Source: an uncultured Actinomycetes bacterium (GTDB lineage Bacteria; Actinomycetota; Actinomycetes; Mycobacteriales; Mycobacteriaceae). Taken from it: a DNA stretch of 17,929 nt. The stretch spans positions 1 through 17,929 of the forward strand of contig CAIWCQ010000111.1 of NCBI GenBank assembly GCA_903911165.1, read 5' to 3'. The notes under the pieces are model-generated. The model saw nothing but the letters and a program-made list of their open reading frames with translations, was not told the origin of the DNA and made no database searches. Both the position numbers and the translations under genes were made by a program. Within the stretch, counting starts at the first letter, position 1. The number at the start of each line of letters is the position of its first letter. Positions 1,958 through 6,349 of the stretch are shown piece by piece.

Positions 1958-2752
1958 GTGCGAAGGCTCGTGACGGCAACGGCAGCGGTGCTCGCGGTCG
2001 TCGCGGGCGGCGTCGGCGCCGACACCGGTGCCGCGATCTATGCGGAGTACCAACTTTCGCGTCATGTCCGCTCGGCCACCGGCCTGCCTTTCGATCCATG
2101 GGTGGCGATCCTGGGCTTTCCGTTCACCCCGCAGGCACTCGCACACCGCTACCGCGAGCTGGAGATCCGGGCCGGCGGCGTCGATCACCCCGTGGTGGGC
2201 AAAGTCGCACTCGAGGCGACCATGCACGACATCGGTTTGAGGCAGGCCTCCTGGCTGATGCGGCCCGACGCCGATCTGCCGGTGGGGAAACTCGAGAGCC
2301 GGATCATCATCGACTCCCGCCACCTGGGCGGCTTCATCGGCGTCAAGGACCTCTCGGTGGGGGCGCCCGCGGCCGACACCAACGACGCCACCGGTGGCAC
2401 CACGGAATCAGGCATCTCCGGCAATAAGGGACTGGTGTTCAGCGGTACCCCGACGAACGCCGGGTTCGACAAGCGGGTGAGCGTCACCGTCGACCTGTCG
2501 GTCGCCGGCCCGGAGCAGACCACGCTGATTCTGACCCCGACCGCCGTGGTGACCGGTCCGAACACCGCCGATCAACCGGTGCCCGACGACAGGCGTGCGG
2601 CTGTCCTCGGCGCGTTCGCAGCCACCATGCCCGGGCAGCGATTGCCGTTCGGCCTGCGACCGACCACCGAGGGCGCCCGGGGGTCCGACATCATCATCGA
2701 AGGCATAGATACCGACGTCACCGTGCGACTCGACGGTTTCACCCAATCATGA
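1958..2752 (+). CDS. lmeA: LmeA-like DUF2993 envelope protein
   Basis: The homologue Rv0817c/LmeA is a periplasmic phospholipid-binding protein needed for maturation of lipomannan and for mannosyltransferase upkeep under stress. The 264-residue product starts with R-R-L and a hydrophobic stretch (about 4-27, [15 protein letters not shown]) that should be a signal peptide or anchor. The remainder fits the DUF2993 family: an N-terminal helix, then a beta-rich lipid-binding barrel with L-E-S-R-I-I-I near 107-113. There is no lipobox Cys, so it is not a lipoprotein. The start is a GTG at 1958, with GGGAAG (1943-1948) as a weak ribosome-binding site 9 nt ahead. It is divergent from glnR across 92 bp, and its stop overlaps the thiX start in ATGA. 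Synteny with Rv0817c supports the call. Confidence 0.85.
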
Positions 2753-3189
2753 GTGCTCTTGTCCCCGCGGGAGCGGCTATTGCCGCCGCCCTGGGGCTTG
2801 CCGGCGCGGCGGGCTTACTGCACAGCCGGCGTTCGGGGGTATTGCGCGACACCGCCGGCCCGGCCGACCTCGACACCACCGATTTGGGGCTTTCGCCGAC
2901 CGCGCCCACGATCGTGCACTTCACCGCCGAATGGTGCGGCCCCTGCGCCGCGGTACGCCGGGTGGTCGATCAGGTCTGCGCCGAGTTGCCACAGGTCGCC
3001 CACGTCGAGATCGACATGGACGCCGCCCCGGGCGCGGCGCGCCGGCTCTCGGTGCTGTCGCTGCCGACGACGTTCATCTTCGACGCCGACGGACATCAGC
3101 GTTACCGGTCCTCCGGTGTGCCGAAGGCAGCGGACCTGCGGGCGGCGATCGAACCCTTATTGGCCGCGGGGCCGGGCGGTTGGGTATGA
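2749..3189 (+). CDS. thiX: membrane-anchored thioredoxin-fold protein ThiX
   Basis: The 146-residue protein has an N-terminal hydrophobic helix (about 4-24, rich in Ala, Gly and Leu) that likely anchors it in the membrane with the thioredoxin domain outside. The active site W-C-G-P-C has Cys63 and Cys66, and the cis-proline loop is L-P-T-T-F with Pro106. Both are complete, so it should be redox active. It resembles Rv0816c, annotated ThiX in M. tuberculosis. The ATG at 2749 overlaps the lmeA stop (ATGA). Its own stop overlaps another ATG at 3186 that opens into the polycysteine leader frame. The context of a rhodanese and a DUF4395 CxxC membrane protein suggests a role in thiol or sulfur handling at the envelope. 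The substrate is unknown. Confidence 0.87.
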   Translation: MSALVPAGAAIAAALGLAGAAGLLHSRRSGVLRDTAGPADLDTTDLGLSPTAPTIVHFTAEWCGPCAAVRRVVDQVCAELPQVAHVEIDMDAAPGAARRLSVLSLPTTFIFDADGHQRYRSSGVPKAADLRAAIEPLLAAGPGGWV

Positions 3190-3190
3190 T
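3185..3190 (+). promoter_or_regulatory. leaderless promoter -10 for the cysteine leader peptide
   Basis: TATGAT matches the -10 consensus closely and ends 7 nt before the GTG at 3198, so the transcript is expected to begin with the start codon itself. TTGGCC at 3160-3165 is a possible -35, with a rather long 19-nt spacer. The hexamer lies across the thiX stop codon. Confidence 0.75.
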
Positions 3191-3197
3191 TCGCTTC

Positions 3198-3287
3198 GTG
3201 CACGCCCGCATTGAGCCGATGCTCACCAAACGCCGCGCAGTCGATCTGTGCCGCACCGCGGGCTGTTGTTGTTGCCGTAGCTGCTGA
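3198..3287 (+). CDS. polycysteine leader peptide (leaderless short ORF)
   Basis: This is a 29-codon ORF beginning with GTG: V-H-A-R-I-E-P-M, then L-T-K-R-R, ending C-R-T-A-G-C-C-C-C-R-S-C. Six of the last twelve codons are Cys, four of them consecutive (3264-3275). M. smegmatis has the same arrangement upstream of its DUF4395-cysA2-sseC operon. There, leaderless polycysteine short ORFs were shown to act as cysteine-responsive attenuators: ribosomes stalled on Cys codons block an RNA structure that hides the next gene's ribosome-binding site. The peptide itself is probably only a sensor. The same frame is also reachable from an ATG at 3186 that overlaps the thiX stop, adding M-I-R-F. The -10 spacing, the Cys run and the downstream pairing potential all agree. 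Confidence 0.88.
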   Translation: MHARIEPMLTKRRAVDLCRTAGCCCCRSC

Positions 3288-3370
3288 GAAGCCGCCGAAC
3301 CTTCGTTTCGTCGCGTCGCTTCCGGGTAGCGCCCGGATCTCATCGGTCCCCCCAGCAACAGGAGCTTGTC
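3263..3370 (+). promoter_or_regulatory. cysteine-responsive translational attenuator
   Basis: The Cys codons at 3263-3271 (CTGTTGTTG) can pair with 3353-3361 (CAGCAACAG), nine pairs with one G-U. This partner touches the AGGAG ribosome-binding site (3360-3364) of the DUF4395 gene. A 6-bp hairpin at 3321-3326/3332-3337 (loop TAGCG) lies between them and would bring the two arms together. A ribosome paused on the Cys run would cover 3263-3271 and free the site, so low cysteine should raise translation. The pairing is read by eye and not folded computationally. The mechanism is known from M. smegmatis. Confidence 0.72.
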
Positions 3371-3844
3371 ATGACACTCACCACCGTTACGCAATCCGTC
3401 GCCATCGATCAGGTGGACGTCCGCGGTCCGCGCTTCTCCGCGTGGGTCACCAGCGCCGTCCTGCTGTCGGTGCTCATCGTCTCGGCCTTCAGCACGACCG
3501 CCGCCGCGGTCATCCTGGCCGCACAGGCGGCCGTCTTCGCGATCGGCGCGCTAGCCGGCCCACGTCGGCATCCCTATGGCCGGATCTTCGCCGCCCTGGT
3601 GGCGCCGCGCCTGGGCCCTGCCACCGAACGCGAACCGGTTTCACCGTTGAAATTCGCCCAATTGGTAGGCCTGCTGTTCGCACTGGTGGGTGTGGCCGGG
3701 TTCGCGTTCGGCGCGCCGCTCGTGGGCGTGATCGCCACAGCGTTCGCGTTGGCCGCAGCCTTCCTCAACGCGGCGTTCGGGATCTGCCTGGGCTGCCAGC
3801 TGTACCCCTTGGCCACCCGCCTGCGGCCTACGCAAGCCACCTAA
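3371..3844 (+). CDS. DUF4395 membrane protein with CxxC
   Basis: The 157-residue integral membrane protein has about four hydrophobic segments, near 24-41, 44-63, 96-116 and 117-137. The last leads into G-I-C-L-G-C-Q-L-Y, with Cys139 and Cys142 as a CxxC pair at the membrane edge. DUF4395 proteins are of unknown function and often sit beside rhodaneses or thioredoxins, and this one lies between thiX and cysA2. A role in moving sulfur compounds or passing electrons across the membrane is reasonable inference. Its ATG has AGGAG (3360-3364) at 6-nt spacing, and that site is the target of the attenuator. I do not recall a counterpart at this place in M. tuberculosis, whereas M. smegmatis has one. 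Confidence 0.82.
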   Translation: MTLTTVTQSVAIDQVDVRGPRFSAWVTSAVLLSVLIVSAFSTTAAAVILAAQAAVFAIGALAGPRRHPYGRIFAALVAPRLGPATEREPVSPLKFAQLVGLLFALVGVAGFAFGAPLVGVIATAFALAAAFLNAAFGICLGCQLYPLATRLRPTQAT

Positions 3845-3866: not shown

Positions 3867-4700
3867 ATGTCTCGCTCCGACGTCCTGGTCTCCACCGACT
3901 GGGCCCAGAGCAATCTCGACACTGAATCCATCGTCTTCGTCGAGGTCGACGAGGACACCAGCGCCTACGACACCGGTCACATTCCAGGGGCGATCAAACT
4001 CGACTGGAAGACCGATCTGCAGGACCCGATCAAGCGGGATTTCGTTGATGCCCAACAGTTTTCAAAGCTGCTCAGCGAACGTGGGATAGCGAACGACGAC
4101 ACCGTAGTCCTCTACGGCGGCAACAACAACTGGTTCGCCGCCTATGCCTACTGGTACTTCAAGCTCTACGGCCACGACAAGATCAAGCTGCTCGACGGTG
4201 GCCGAAAGAAATGGGAACTCGACGGCCGCACCATGTCCGCCGATCCCGTCAACCGGCCGGCCACCAGTTACGCCGCCGAGGCGCCCGATACCAGCATCCG
4301 CGCGTTCCGCGATGAGGTGATCGCTGCCATCGGCAACAAGAACCTCGTCGATGTGCGCTCGCCGGACGAGTTCTCCGGCAAAATCCTGGCCCCGGCACAC
4401 CTCCCCCAGGAGCAGAGCCAGCGCCCCGGCCATATCCCCGGCGCGATCAATGTGCCGTGGAGCAGAGCCGCCAACGAAGACGGCACCTTCAAGTCCGATG
4501 AGGAACTGACCGCCATCTACGCCGCGGCGGGCCTCGACGACACCCGGGAGACCATCGCCTACTGCCGAATCGGGGAGCGTTCCTCGCACACCTGGTTCGT
4601 GCTGCAGGAGTTGTTGGGGCACAAGAACGTCAAGAACTACGACGGCAGTTGGACCGAATACGGCTCCCTGGTGGGGGCCCCGATCGAGTTGGGAAGTTGA
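3867..4700 (+). CDS. cysA2: thiosulfate sulfurtransferase CysA2/CysA3-like rhodanese
   Basis: Cytosolic rhodanese that moves a sulfane sulfur from thiosulfate to a thiophilic acceptor through a persulfide on the active-site Cys. The 277-residue product has two rhodanese domains. The inactive N-terminal one (about 5-125) contains D-T-G-H-I-P-G-A near 35-42. The catalytic one (about 145-275) contains R-P-G-H-I-P-G-A-I-N and the active-site loop C-R-I-G-E-R-S, with Cys233 as nucleophile. Length and loop match the M. tuberculosis CysA2/CysA3 proteins. It starts 22 nt after the DUF4395 gene with AAAGG upstream, and sseC follows 2 nt after its stop. It is therefore expected to sit under the cysteine attenuator at operon level. 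Confidence 0.93.
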   Translation: MSRSDVLVSTDWAQSNLDTESIVFVEVDEDTSAYDTGHIPGAIKLDWKTDLQDPIKRDFVDAQQFSKLLSERGIANDDTVVLYGGNNNWFAAYAYWYFKLYGHDKIKLLDGGRKKWELDGRTMSADPVNRPATSYAAEAPDTSIRAFRDEVIAAIGNKNLVDVRSPDEFSGKILAPAHLPQEQSQRPGHIPGAINVPWSRAANEDGTFKSDEELTAIYAAAGLDDTRETIAYCRIGERSSHTWFVLQELLGHKNVKNYDGSWTEYGSLVGAPIELGS

Positions 4701-4702
4701 TC

Positions 4703-5005
4703 ATGTGCGCTGCACCCGAGCAAGGGCAGAAGCTGCCCGCCGAGGTAAATCTGGAGAAGGAAACGGTGATCACCGGCCGGGTCGTCGACGGCGCCGGCCA
4801 GGCCGTCGGCGGCGCTTTCGTGCGCCTGCTGGACTCCGCGCAGGAGTTCACCGCCGAGGTGGTCGCCTCGGCGGGCGGCGACTTCCGGTTCTTCGCCGCG
4901 CCGGGCACGTGGACGGTGCGGGCCCTGTCGCGGGTGGGCACCGGCGATATCACGGTGGCTCCCTCCGGCGCGGGTCTGCACGAGGTCGACGTCAAAGTCG
5001 CCTGA
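4703..5005 (+). CDS. sseC2: SseC-like DUF1416 protein
   Basis: This 100-residue protein begins M-C and contains E-K-E-T-V-I-T-G-R-V-V-D-G and F-V-R-L-L-D-S, closely matching the SseC1/SseC2 proteins of M. tuberculosis. DUF1416 looks like a small all-beta, carboxypeptidase-regulatory-like fold. Its biochemical role is unknown, but it is nearly always next to a CysA-type rhodanese. The open frame extends back to 4649, inside cysA2. I chose the ATG at 4703 because it is 2 nt after the cysA2 stop, has GGGAAG just ahead, and gives the conserved M-C start and family length. The N-terminal Cys2 is worth noting as a possible sulfur-handling residue (inference). Confidence 0.88.
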   Translation: MCAAPEQGQKLPAEVNLEKETVITGRVVDGAGQAVGGAFVRLLDSAQEFTAEVVASAGGDFRFFAAPGTWTVRALSRVGTGDITVAPSGAGLHEVDVKVA

Positions 5006-6056: not shown

Positions 6057-6123
6057 CCTCGCCGCTGCGCTCCCGCCCCGCGCAAACGCAACGTGCCCCA
6101 ACACAGCTAGTCCAGACATGAAG

Positions 6124-6175
6124 CGGCCCCCGAGCCTTGGTATCCAGGTTGGACGGACCGGGGGCTCGGGGGCCG
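6124..6175. terminator. 13-bp perfect inverted repeat, likely bidirectional terminator
   Basis: CGGCCCCCGAGCC (6124-6136) and its perfect complement (6163-6175) form a 13-bp GC-rich stem around a 26-nt loop. No U-run follows on either strand, as is common for mycobacterial terminators. It lies about 70 bp past the lipoprotein stop and would also end any minus-strand RNA from the 6350-6378 promoter. It could instead be a stable structural domain of a small RNA. Confidence 0.55.
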
Positions 6176-6239
6176 GGTAGCTGCCTGGAATTCGCCAGCG
6201 CGCGCAGAGCGCGGGTGATTTCCGGCACCTCAATAGTTT

Positions 6240-6265
6240 CGCCGCTGCACTGACGTTTAGCGGCG
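6240..6265. repeat. 7-bp stem with 12-nt loop
   Basis: CGCCGCT (6240-6246) pairs with AGCGGCG (6259-6265). On the minus strand it follows the stop of the 13-codon ORF by a few bases. A second small stem (6270-6274/6281-6285, loop TAGCGG) covers that stop codon itself. Confidence 0.5.
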
Positions 6266-6273
6266 GCGTGCTG

Positions 6274-6315
6274 CTAGCGGGCAGCCACCTCACATGTCCA
6301 AGAAGAACTACTCAA
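6274..6315 (-). CDS. possible 13-aa peptide ORF behind a perfect Shine-Dalgarno
   Basis: On the minus strand AAAGGAGGTGG (6325-6335) is an almost complete match to the 16S rRNA 3' end. A TTG at 6313-6315 follows and opens M-S-S-S-S-W-T-C-E-V-A-A-R, with a TAG stop at 6274-6276. The TTG lies 12 nt after AGGAGG, which is long. An in-frame ATT at 6316-6318 lies at 9 nt and is a rarer possible start. The frame stays open after the TAG, but codon use there does not look coding. The ribosome-binding site is real to the eye; translation is inference. Confidence 0.35.
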   Translation of the reverse strand: MSSSSWTCEVAAR

Positions 6316-6349
6316 AATTCCGGACCACCTCCTTTCCTGTGTACCCGCA

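Follow-up and report, generated by a model that had tools for sequence, protein, structure and literature searches.

A polycysteine leader upstream of the mycobacterial DUF4395-cysA2-sseC genes is probably a cysteine-responsive attenuator whose sensing codons can pair with the next ribosome-binding site

A short polycysteine reading frame precedes the sulfurtransferase genes of this mycobacterial contig, and we conclude that it probably gauges cysteine, since the RNA can fold so that the cysteine codons pair with the ribosome-binding site of the next gene. We put the probability that this leader is a cysteine-responsive translational attenuator of the sulfurtransferase operon at about 0.7. According to the model, transcription would start at the leader's own GTG and a ribosome would translate its 29 codons. 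When Cys-tRNA is plentiful, the ribosome would pass and leave, letting the UGU/UGC tract pair with an arm that overlaps the Shine-Dalgarno (SD) site of the DUF4395 gene and holding initiation down. Under a shortage of Cys-tRNA, the ribosome would stall in the tract and presumably cover it, which would free the DUF4395 start; the resulting on-state would, as we suppose the cysteine response to run, yield more translation of the sulfurtransferase operon. The support described here consists of a conserved leader, its -10 box, a bias toward UGU codons, a complementary arm, stems within the reading frame and the modeled effect of removing the tract. A first-pass annotation of this DNA had proposed a switch in which the sensing codons themselves form the anti-SD arm; that mechanism is plausible and is partly supported by comparison of sequences within the Mycobacteriaceae.

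The window, by which we mean the whole 17,929-nt stretch of DNA that was analyzed, comes from a 3.14-Mb assembly of 524 contigs that is 97.6% complete. Its + strand carries all of the elements described below unless another strand is given. A gene for an LmeA-type protein (1958-2752) is followed by a thioredoxin gene (2749-3189), which lies just upstream of the leader; downstream of the leader come genes for a DUF4395 protein (3371-3844, with its ATG at 3371; PF14340, 143 bits), a cysA2-type rhodanese, that is, a sulfurtransferase (3867-4700; PF00581, 126 bits), and an sseC-type DUF1416 protein (4703-5005; PF07210, 141 bits). We take the names cysA2 and sseC for the last two from gene order, as an assumption; the Pfam order DUF4395, rhodanese, DUF1416 downstream of the leader is that expected of the cysA2-sseC operon, in which DUF4395 would be the first gene controlled. 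Further along, the actinobacterial sRNA Ms_IGR-5 (Rfam RF02471) matches 6118-6342 on the - strand with 152 bits over the full length of the model.

The leader itself (3198-3287) consists of 29 codons and a TGA stop, starts with the GTG at 3198 and encodes the peptide VHARIEPMLTKRRAVDLCRTAGCCCCRSC, which has four consecutive cysteines (CCCC) and six in all. A -10 box, TATGAT (3185-3190), stands 7 nt before the GTG and runs across the 3' end of the thioredoxin gene; a consensus promoter scan of 3000-3500 found no two-hexamer promoter. The leader is read as probably leaderless, with a transcript that would start at the GTG. The TATGAT, the GTG, the 29-codon frame and the run of four cysteines had all been reported by the first-pass annotation, and every coordinate proved correct in the sequence.

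The 169 DUF4395 loci compared were that of the window, 80 on named genome contigs (the best 80 of 162 confirmed) and 88 from other genomes of the family (29 given and 59 fetched stretches, from a search with a match in 265/301 genomes); the named and the further sets share species in part. A homologous leader of 26-31 codons with a cysteine-rich run at its end was present in 161/169 of these loci. The eight without one are six in which DUF4395 lies beside thiX, together with L191 and with L073, which has too little upstream sequence. By peptide type, the 161 leaders fall into 98 like those of Mycobacteriaceae (AGCCC...) and 63 of other genera (LGGCCC...), and a core, LTKRRAVDLCR..GCCC, is conserved across the Mycobacteriales; one alignment covered 30 of 91 leaders. 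The start codon is GTG in 158/161 loci. All 161 starts are preceded, at a distance of 6-8 nt (7 nt in 149), by a TANNNT box, compared with 2.3% in shuffled sequence; the count is partly conditioned, since our start-picking script slightly favored candidates with such a box. A search of 3150-3450 against Rfam gave no match even at E 5. The kinship with the mycobacterial cysA2 polycysteine leader that the earlier annotation had asserted is borne out by the Pfam gene order and by this conserved leader, and the same data support its membership of the known family of polycysteine leaderless small reading frames upstream of cysA2-sseC. Among the best 80 of the 162 confirmed matches, the nearest DUF4395 outside the source genome (89% identity) is in contig CAMDFY010000033.1 (L002), and the next relatives are mycobacteria at 62-79% identity and lower ranks. 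The L002 contig bears the title of a Bifidobacterium breve MAG and has a leader nearly identical to that of the window; it is apparently a mycobacterial contig that was binned wrongly.

The sensing cysteine codons supply the putative anti-SD strand, CTGTTGTTG (3263-3271), which can form nine base pairs, a single U.G among them, with the arm CAGCAACAG (3353-3361). The SD site of DUF4395, read in the sequence as AGGAG (3360-3364), is overlapped by the last two bases of the arm only (3360-3361). The nine-pair complement overlapping AGGAG in the first-pass annotation is therefore confirmed, with a two-base overlap and one U.G pair. When the 34-nt arm of the window was shuffled with AGGAG kept, an equally good helix arose in 1.6% of 2000 trials; when only the cysteine codons of its leader were redrawn at local usage, 18.4% of the recodings equaled the real helix. 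The annotation had also pointed to a hairpin that shortens the distance between the two strands. The hairpin, TCCGGG-TAGCG-CCCGGA (3321-3337), is there, with six perfect pairs; as a conserved functional spacer it was rejected, being found only in the window and its nearest relative L002 (2/161 loci).

Across relatives, the complementarity is most evident in the Mycobacteriaceae. In 77/98 of their loci, CAACA occurs within the final 34 nt upstream of DUF4395, compared with 7.8 expected from shuffles, and CAACAGGAG does so in 53/98, compared with 0.1; 21/98 have no CAACA near the SD. In other genera, CAACA is found in 5/63 loci against 2.3 expected. Where its position could be scored (72 loci), CAACA sits right against the SD in 50 loci and 4-9 nt upstream of it in 15, at 0-2 nt in 3 and downstream of it in 4. 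Duplex energies follow the same pattern: in the Mycobacteriaceae, 88/91 loci are better than the median shuffle and 32/91 better than 95% of shuffles, and in other genera 34/57 and 3/57. Redrawing the cysteine codons weakens the best helix in mycobacteria (from 19.5 to 16.3, with the native leader above the recoded mean in 65/88) and makes no difference elsewhere (15.6 to 15.5; 31/58). The tract is also rich in UGU, which accounts for 354/565 cysteine codons (63%) in 88 distinct mycobacterial leaders and 11% in neighboring genes, and for 132/256 (52%) in other genera, where neighboring genes use it at 2%; this bias could serve pairing, slower decoding or both. Taken as sequence evidence, these comparisons support a complementarity between tract and SD arm that is conserved in Mycobacteriaceae beyond shuffled arms and is weaker in other genera.

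We then examined the predicted helix by partition-function folding of the leader and start region, with shuffled arms that kept the SD as controls; L042, L016, L032 and L189, in which the start or tract is doubtful, were left out of this test and of the recoding and arm-swap tests. In the Mycobacteriaceae, the model gives 12.87 expected tract-arm pairs, compared with 3.19 for shuffled arms, and the native arm is higher in 90/94 loci. Removal of the leader up to its stop codon, which mimics occupancy of the tract by a ribosome, makes the start site cheaper to open by a predicted 5.36 kcal/mol, compared with 1.76 kcal/mol in shuffles, and the native drop is the larger in 82/94. Other genera show 6.48 expected pairs against 2.52 (native higher in 46/63) and an opening gain of 1.69 against 0.20 kcal/mol (49/63). 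The window has 15.6 expected pairs, compared with 2.9 with shuffled arms; on leader removal its opening cost falls from 10.1 to 7.6, and with shuffled arms it stays at 10.2 (10.2 before, 10.2 after). The pairing across mycobacteria on which the first-pass annotation had staked its proposal is thus retained in Mycobacteriaceae, in CAACA and in expected pairs alike.

When explicit ribosome footprints were placed on the window, the opening cost rose from 10.1 without a ribosome to 13.4 when one occupied codon 6, and dropped to 5.7 when it was stalled at the first cysteine of the tract (L042 was left out of the footprint model). In the model, a ribosome that has reached the stop codon is as effective as a stalled one in opening the start, and AGGAG is mostly paired in every modeled state, with a mean unpaired value of 0.27 when free and 0.35 when stalled. 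The fold of 3198-3400 that the annotation had called for places the tract-SD helix in the minimum-energy structure, but the leader as a whole folds about as well as its shuffles (z -0.63). Folding 3245-3375 gave z -1.05, again with the helix in the minimum-energy structure.

The evidence from covariation is only suggestive. Tracts interrupted by arginine have GAC in the arm in 11/13 cases, compared with 13/75 of the others (Fisher p 4e-6, uncorrected), or in 17/29 compared with 24/92 under a looser definition. The group with a CCCCRCR tract has CGACA in its arm, and in L010 CTGTTGTTGTCG stands opposite TGACAACAACAG in 12 pairs. On the DUF4395 tree, from which L042 was left out, 11 independent pairs differ in the trait, with 2.1 concordant against 0.3 discordant and a median p of 0.5. 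Swapping arms among 88 distinct mycobacterial loci gave nearly the same helix, and 196/2000 permutations were as good. Because UGY repeats and CA-rich arms pair promiscuously, the helix can persist without strict covariation; covariation cannot be claimed either. The compensatory changes that the first-pass annotation had looked to as support do exist, but they are not significant once relatedness is counted. We have therefore set covariation aside as proof of the tract-SD helix.

Does the arm go with the leader? Once identical DUF4395 rows are taken out, CAACA occurs in 93/121 rows with a leader and in 1/18 without; the stretch examined was 45 nt in part of the rows and 75 nt in the rest, and because the leader state changes only twice on the DUF4395 tree, this contrast is close to a single evolutionary event. 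A survey downstream of thioredoxin genes, in which 118 further genomes of the genus were searched and 60 stretches fetched, gave, with 10 loci added, 70 loci. The leader was followed by DUF4395 in 36 and directly by cysA2, with DUF4395 undetected, in 4; in 30/70, including three unrelated thioredoxins, the leader was not found. Upstream of DUF4395, CAACA occurred in 2/23 leader-less loci (L261 and L269), several of the 23 being duplicates. In L240 and L243, where DUF4395 is undetected between the leader and cysA2, CAACAGGAG is retained on the downstream side of the leader, at a distance from the cysA2 start; these are probably recent losses of DUF4395. Two 3.3-Mb genomes keep DUF4395 and cysA2 with a leader that is altered at its end (GCCCSWLK; L255) or was not found by our script (L261). 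A subgroup of the genus (L202-L207 and similar loci) has the thioredoxin-DUF4395 pair without the leader and without cysA2 within the stretches fetched.

An alternative is that the leader controls transcription through Rho. In that case, the ribosome, translating or stalled, would decide whether Rho gains access to RNA polymerase in the 83 nt that separate the leader from DUF4395, and the complementarity of tract and SD would be incidental or secondary. Rho was suggested for mycobacterial cys leaders in 2005 (PMC1262725), and no intrinsic terminator is evident here: we found none between 3288 and 3370, and TTTTT occurs in the intergenic stretch of 5/98 and 3/63 loci (8/161). A terminator-like scan site at 3245-3262, before the U-rich tract, was rejected, as three of its six pairs are wobble pairs and it lies inside the leader frame. 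Against Rho, the SD-complementary arm is conserved in Mycobacteriaceae beyond shuffles, which that model does not require; the prediction was called weak by its own authors in the passage concerned (PMC1262725); and later papers, where they describe the M. smegmatis leaders, do so in terms of translation attenuation (PMC13236596, PMC9031893, PMC13091356). We consider regulation through Rho unlikely.

The reading frame of the leader may also be folded. Three stems can be drawn within it. In P0, the 5' strand GCCCGC (3204-3209) pairs with the 3' strand GCGGGC (3258-3263), which adjoins the cysteine tract, so that C3263 is common to P0 and the tract-SD helix. P1 is a hairpin, GAGC-CGAT-GCTC (3213-3224), beginning at leader base +16, and P2 is a hairpin, GCGCAG-TCGAT-CTGTGC (3235-3251), whose 3' strand holds the first cysteine codon. 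These were measured against a null in which synonymous codons were redrawn at local usage, with all pairs required and distinct leaders counted (L016, L160 and L161 were left out for indels). All four pairs of P1 (GAGC-N4-GCUC) are present in 76/76 mycobacterial leaders, compared with 10.8 under the null, and in 52/54 elsewhere, compared with 15.3. All six pairs of P2 (GCRCRG-N5-CUGUGY) are present in 73/76 against 13.8 and in 54/54 against 6.6, and all six of P0 (GCCCGC/GCGGGY) in 65/76 against 6.0 and in 3/54 against 0.2. RNAalifold, unprompted, found P1 and P2 (P2 with one closed pair fewer in mycobacteria) and, in mycobacteria, part of P0. The pairing of P2 survives G.U/A-U exchanges, through one-sided changes only.

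The same constraint is apparent in codon choice. In 74 named mycobacterial leaders, L9 is CTC and A21 is GCG in 74/74, and in mycobacterial leaders A14 is GCA in 64/68 and D16 is GAT in 63/70, codons used at 8% (GCA) and 11% (GAT) in neighboring genes. The mean top-codon fraction is 0.89 in the leader, compared with 0.75 expected from conserved cysA2 columns. Codon 8 is represented in mycobacteria by nine different codons, all ending in G, and its amino acid varies freely. The three stems account for much of the synonymous fixation in the leader, and their role is probably to hold the tract beside the SD arm. A broader reading, to which we give slightly less than an even chance, is that the polycysteine leader frame is a folded RNA element across the Mycobacteriales, with P1 and P2 (and P0 in mycobacteria) under nucleotide selection, and not just a codon sensor. 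P1, from +16, would then lie at about the edge of an initiating 70S ribosome and P0 would abut the SD-blocking helix of UGU codons, the same bases serving as codons, leaderless 5' end, stem and anti-SD strand. In 30/63 loci outside the Mycobacteriaceae (for example, L081, L130 and L141), the SD stands in the context GC(G/A)CAGGAG. Since GC(G/A)CAG is the sequence of the P2 5' strand, this SD context could be a rival partner for the P2 3' strand in those genera; we make no claim for this alternative arm, which our tests did not distinguish from the tract arm.

For P1 alone, GAGC-N4-GCTC might instead be a DNA operator, bound by a regulator just downstream of the start site, and not an RNA hairpin, an arrangement that would be compatible with the attenuator. 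The motif is a perfect palindrome, invariant in 76/76 mycobacterial sequences, and because it hardly varies it offers no covariation to prove RNA pairing, which leaves room for an operator. However, the neighboring P2 is an imperfect palindrome whose pairing is kept through G.U/A-U exchanges, as suits RNA, and P1 and P2 both emerged from RNAalifold unprompted; we regard an operator as improbable. Arrest leaders occur in other bacteria, and the peptide core is conserved across Mycobacteriales, but the idea that the peptide LTKRRAVDLCR..GCCC itself stalls the ribosome, with a signal other than cysteine level, is very unlikely given that synonymous sites are constrained as much as amino acids, that codon 8 is free in amino acid and fixed in its third base, and that the tract ends in many different residues.

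A cysteine-responsive attenuator would agree with what is described for related leaders. Ribosome occupancy of the cysA2 leader (Msmeg_5788 / Rv0815 leader) was described in M. smegmatis in 2015, in a paper that also names the nirA (Msmeg_4527) and Rv0485 leaders (PMC4633059). Papers citing Canestrari 2020 (PMC9031893, PMC13236596, PMC13091356) describe cysteine-responsive leaders that act on downstream translation, one of them with alternative RNA structures as the means, and by these accounts the M. smegmatis ortholog has a translated leader and cysteine-responsive expression (PMC4633059, PMC13236596, PMC9031893). The window leader resembles the cysA2 leader as portrayed there (PMC4633059) in being short, of leaderless type, with a C-terminal cysteine cluster and upstream of cysA2; it differs from that description in having DUF4395 between leader and cysA2, as do, with 4 exceptions, the leader-bearing relatives in the survey downstream of thioredoxin genes. 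Leaders with cysteine runs were predicted in 2005 at mycobacterial cys operons, in P. acnes and at B. longum cbs; in the part of that paper dealing with them, no conserved hairpin capable of termination is given, and Rho is suggested and called weak (PMC1262725). By description, these are like the window leader in having a run of cysteine codons near the stop codon and no conserved terminator; unlike it, they are presented with Rho and with no RNA structure reported (PMC1262725). Terminator attenuators such as ilvB1 of M. tuberculosis likewise have a leader frame that encodes consecutive residues of the sensed amino acid (PMC13236596); the window locus differs from them in having no U-tract terminator.

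The closest mechanistic parallel is the LEU element, in which leucine codons pair with the SD of leuA (PMC1262725), so that there too the sensing codons pair with the SD of the controlled gene. The LEU element differs, as described, in its leucine codons, in having a pseudoknot and in belonging to another operon; the window leader would work like it but is not a member, having cysteine codons and a sulfur operon. The nirA leader (Msmeg_4527, PMC4633059; 30 loci here) is likewise short, with a -10-like box and a peptide, RRHVDxKRVC.CCC, that recalls RRAVDLCR..CCC. The nirA leaders end in C.CCC-type runs but have CAACA in 1/30 loci (L283/L313, L314-L342), which led us to reject tract-SD pairing as a general rule for polycysteine leaders. 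A GCTCC-N-GGAGC hairpin surrounds the nirA SD in 13/30 loci, compared with 0.09 expected, which suggests a different SD-blocking design that reaches the same end through another hairpin. A search of the source genome with a -10 filter found no further convincing polycysteine leader (42 matches to a four-cysteine-codon pattern; 33 to CCC-x-C, 3 of them left out); these patterns miss leaders with only three cysteines in a row, such as those of nirA.

That mycobacterial cysteine leaders act as switches is known already, and pairing of sensing codons with an SD had earlier been proposed in the case of leuA (PMC1262725). Our literature search, which covered few subscription journals, found no account of the tract-SD helix of this operon, so we do not claim the helix as new; in the literature as far as it was covered, the conserved folded structure inside the leader frame is the part least covered. 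The accounts of the mycobacterial cysteine switch, in the parts that bear on it, leave the bases that block translation unnamed. Our comparisons single out one tract-SD helix and particular stems in the reading frame, and the mechanism is thereby testable base by base. If true, it would be a second actinobacterial case, after the LEU element of leuA, of sensing codons doubling as an anti-SD strand.
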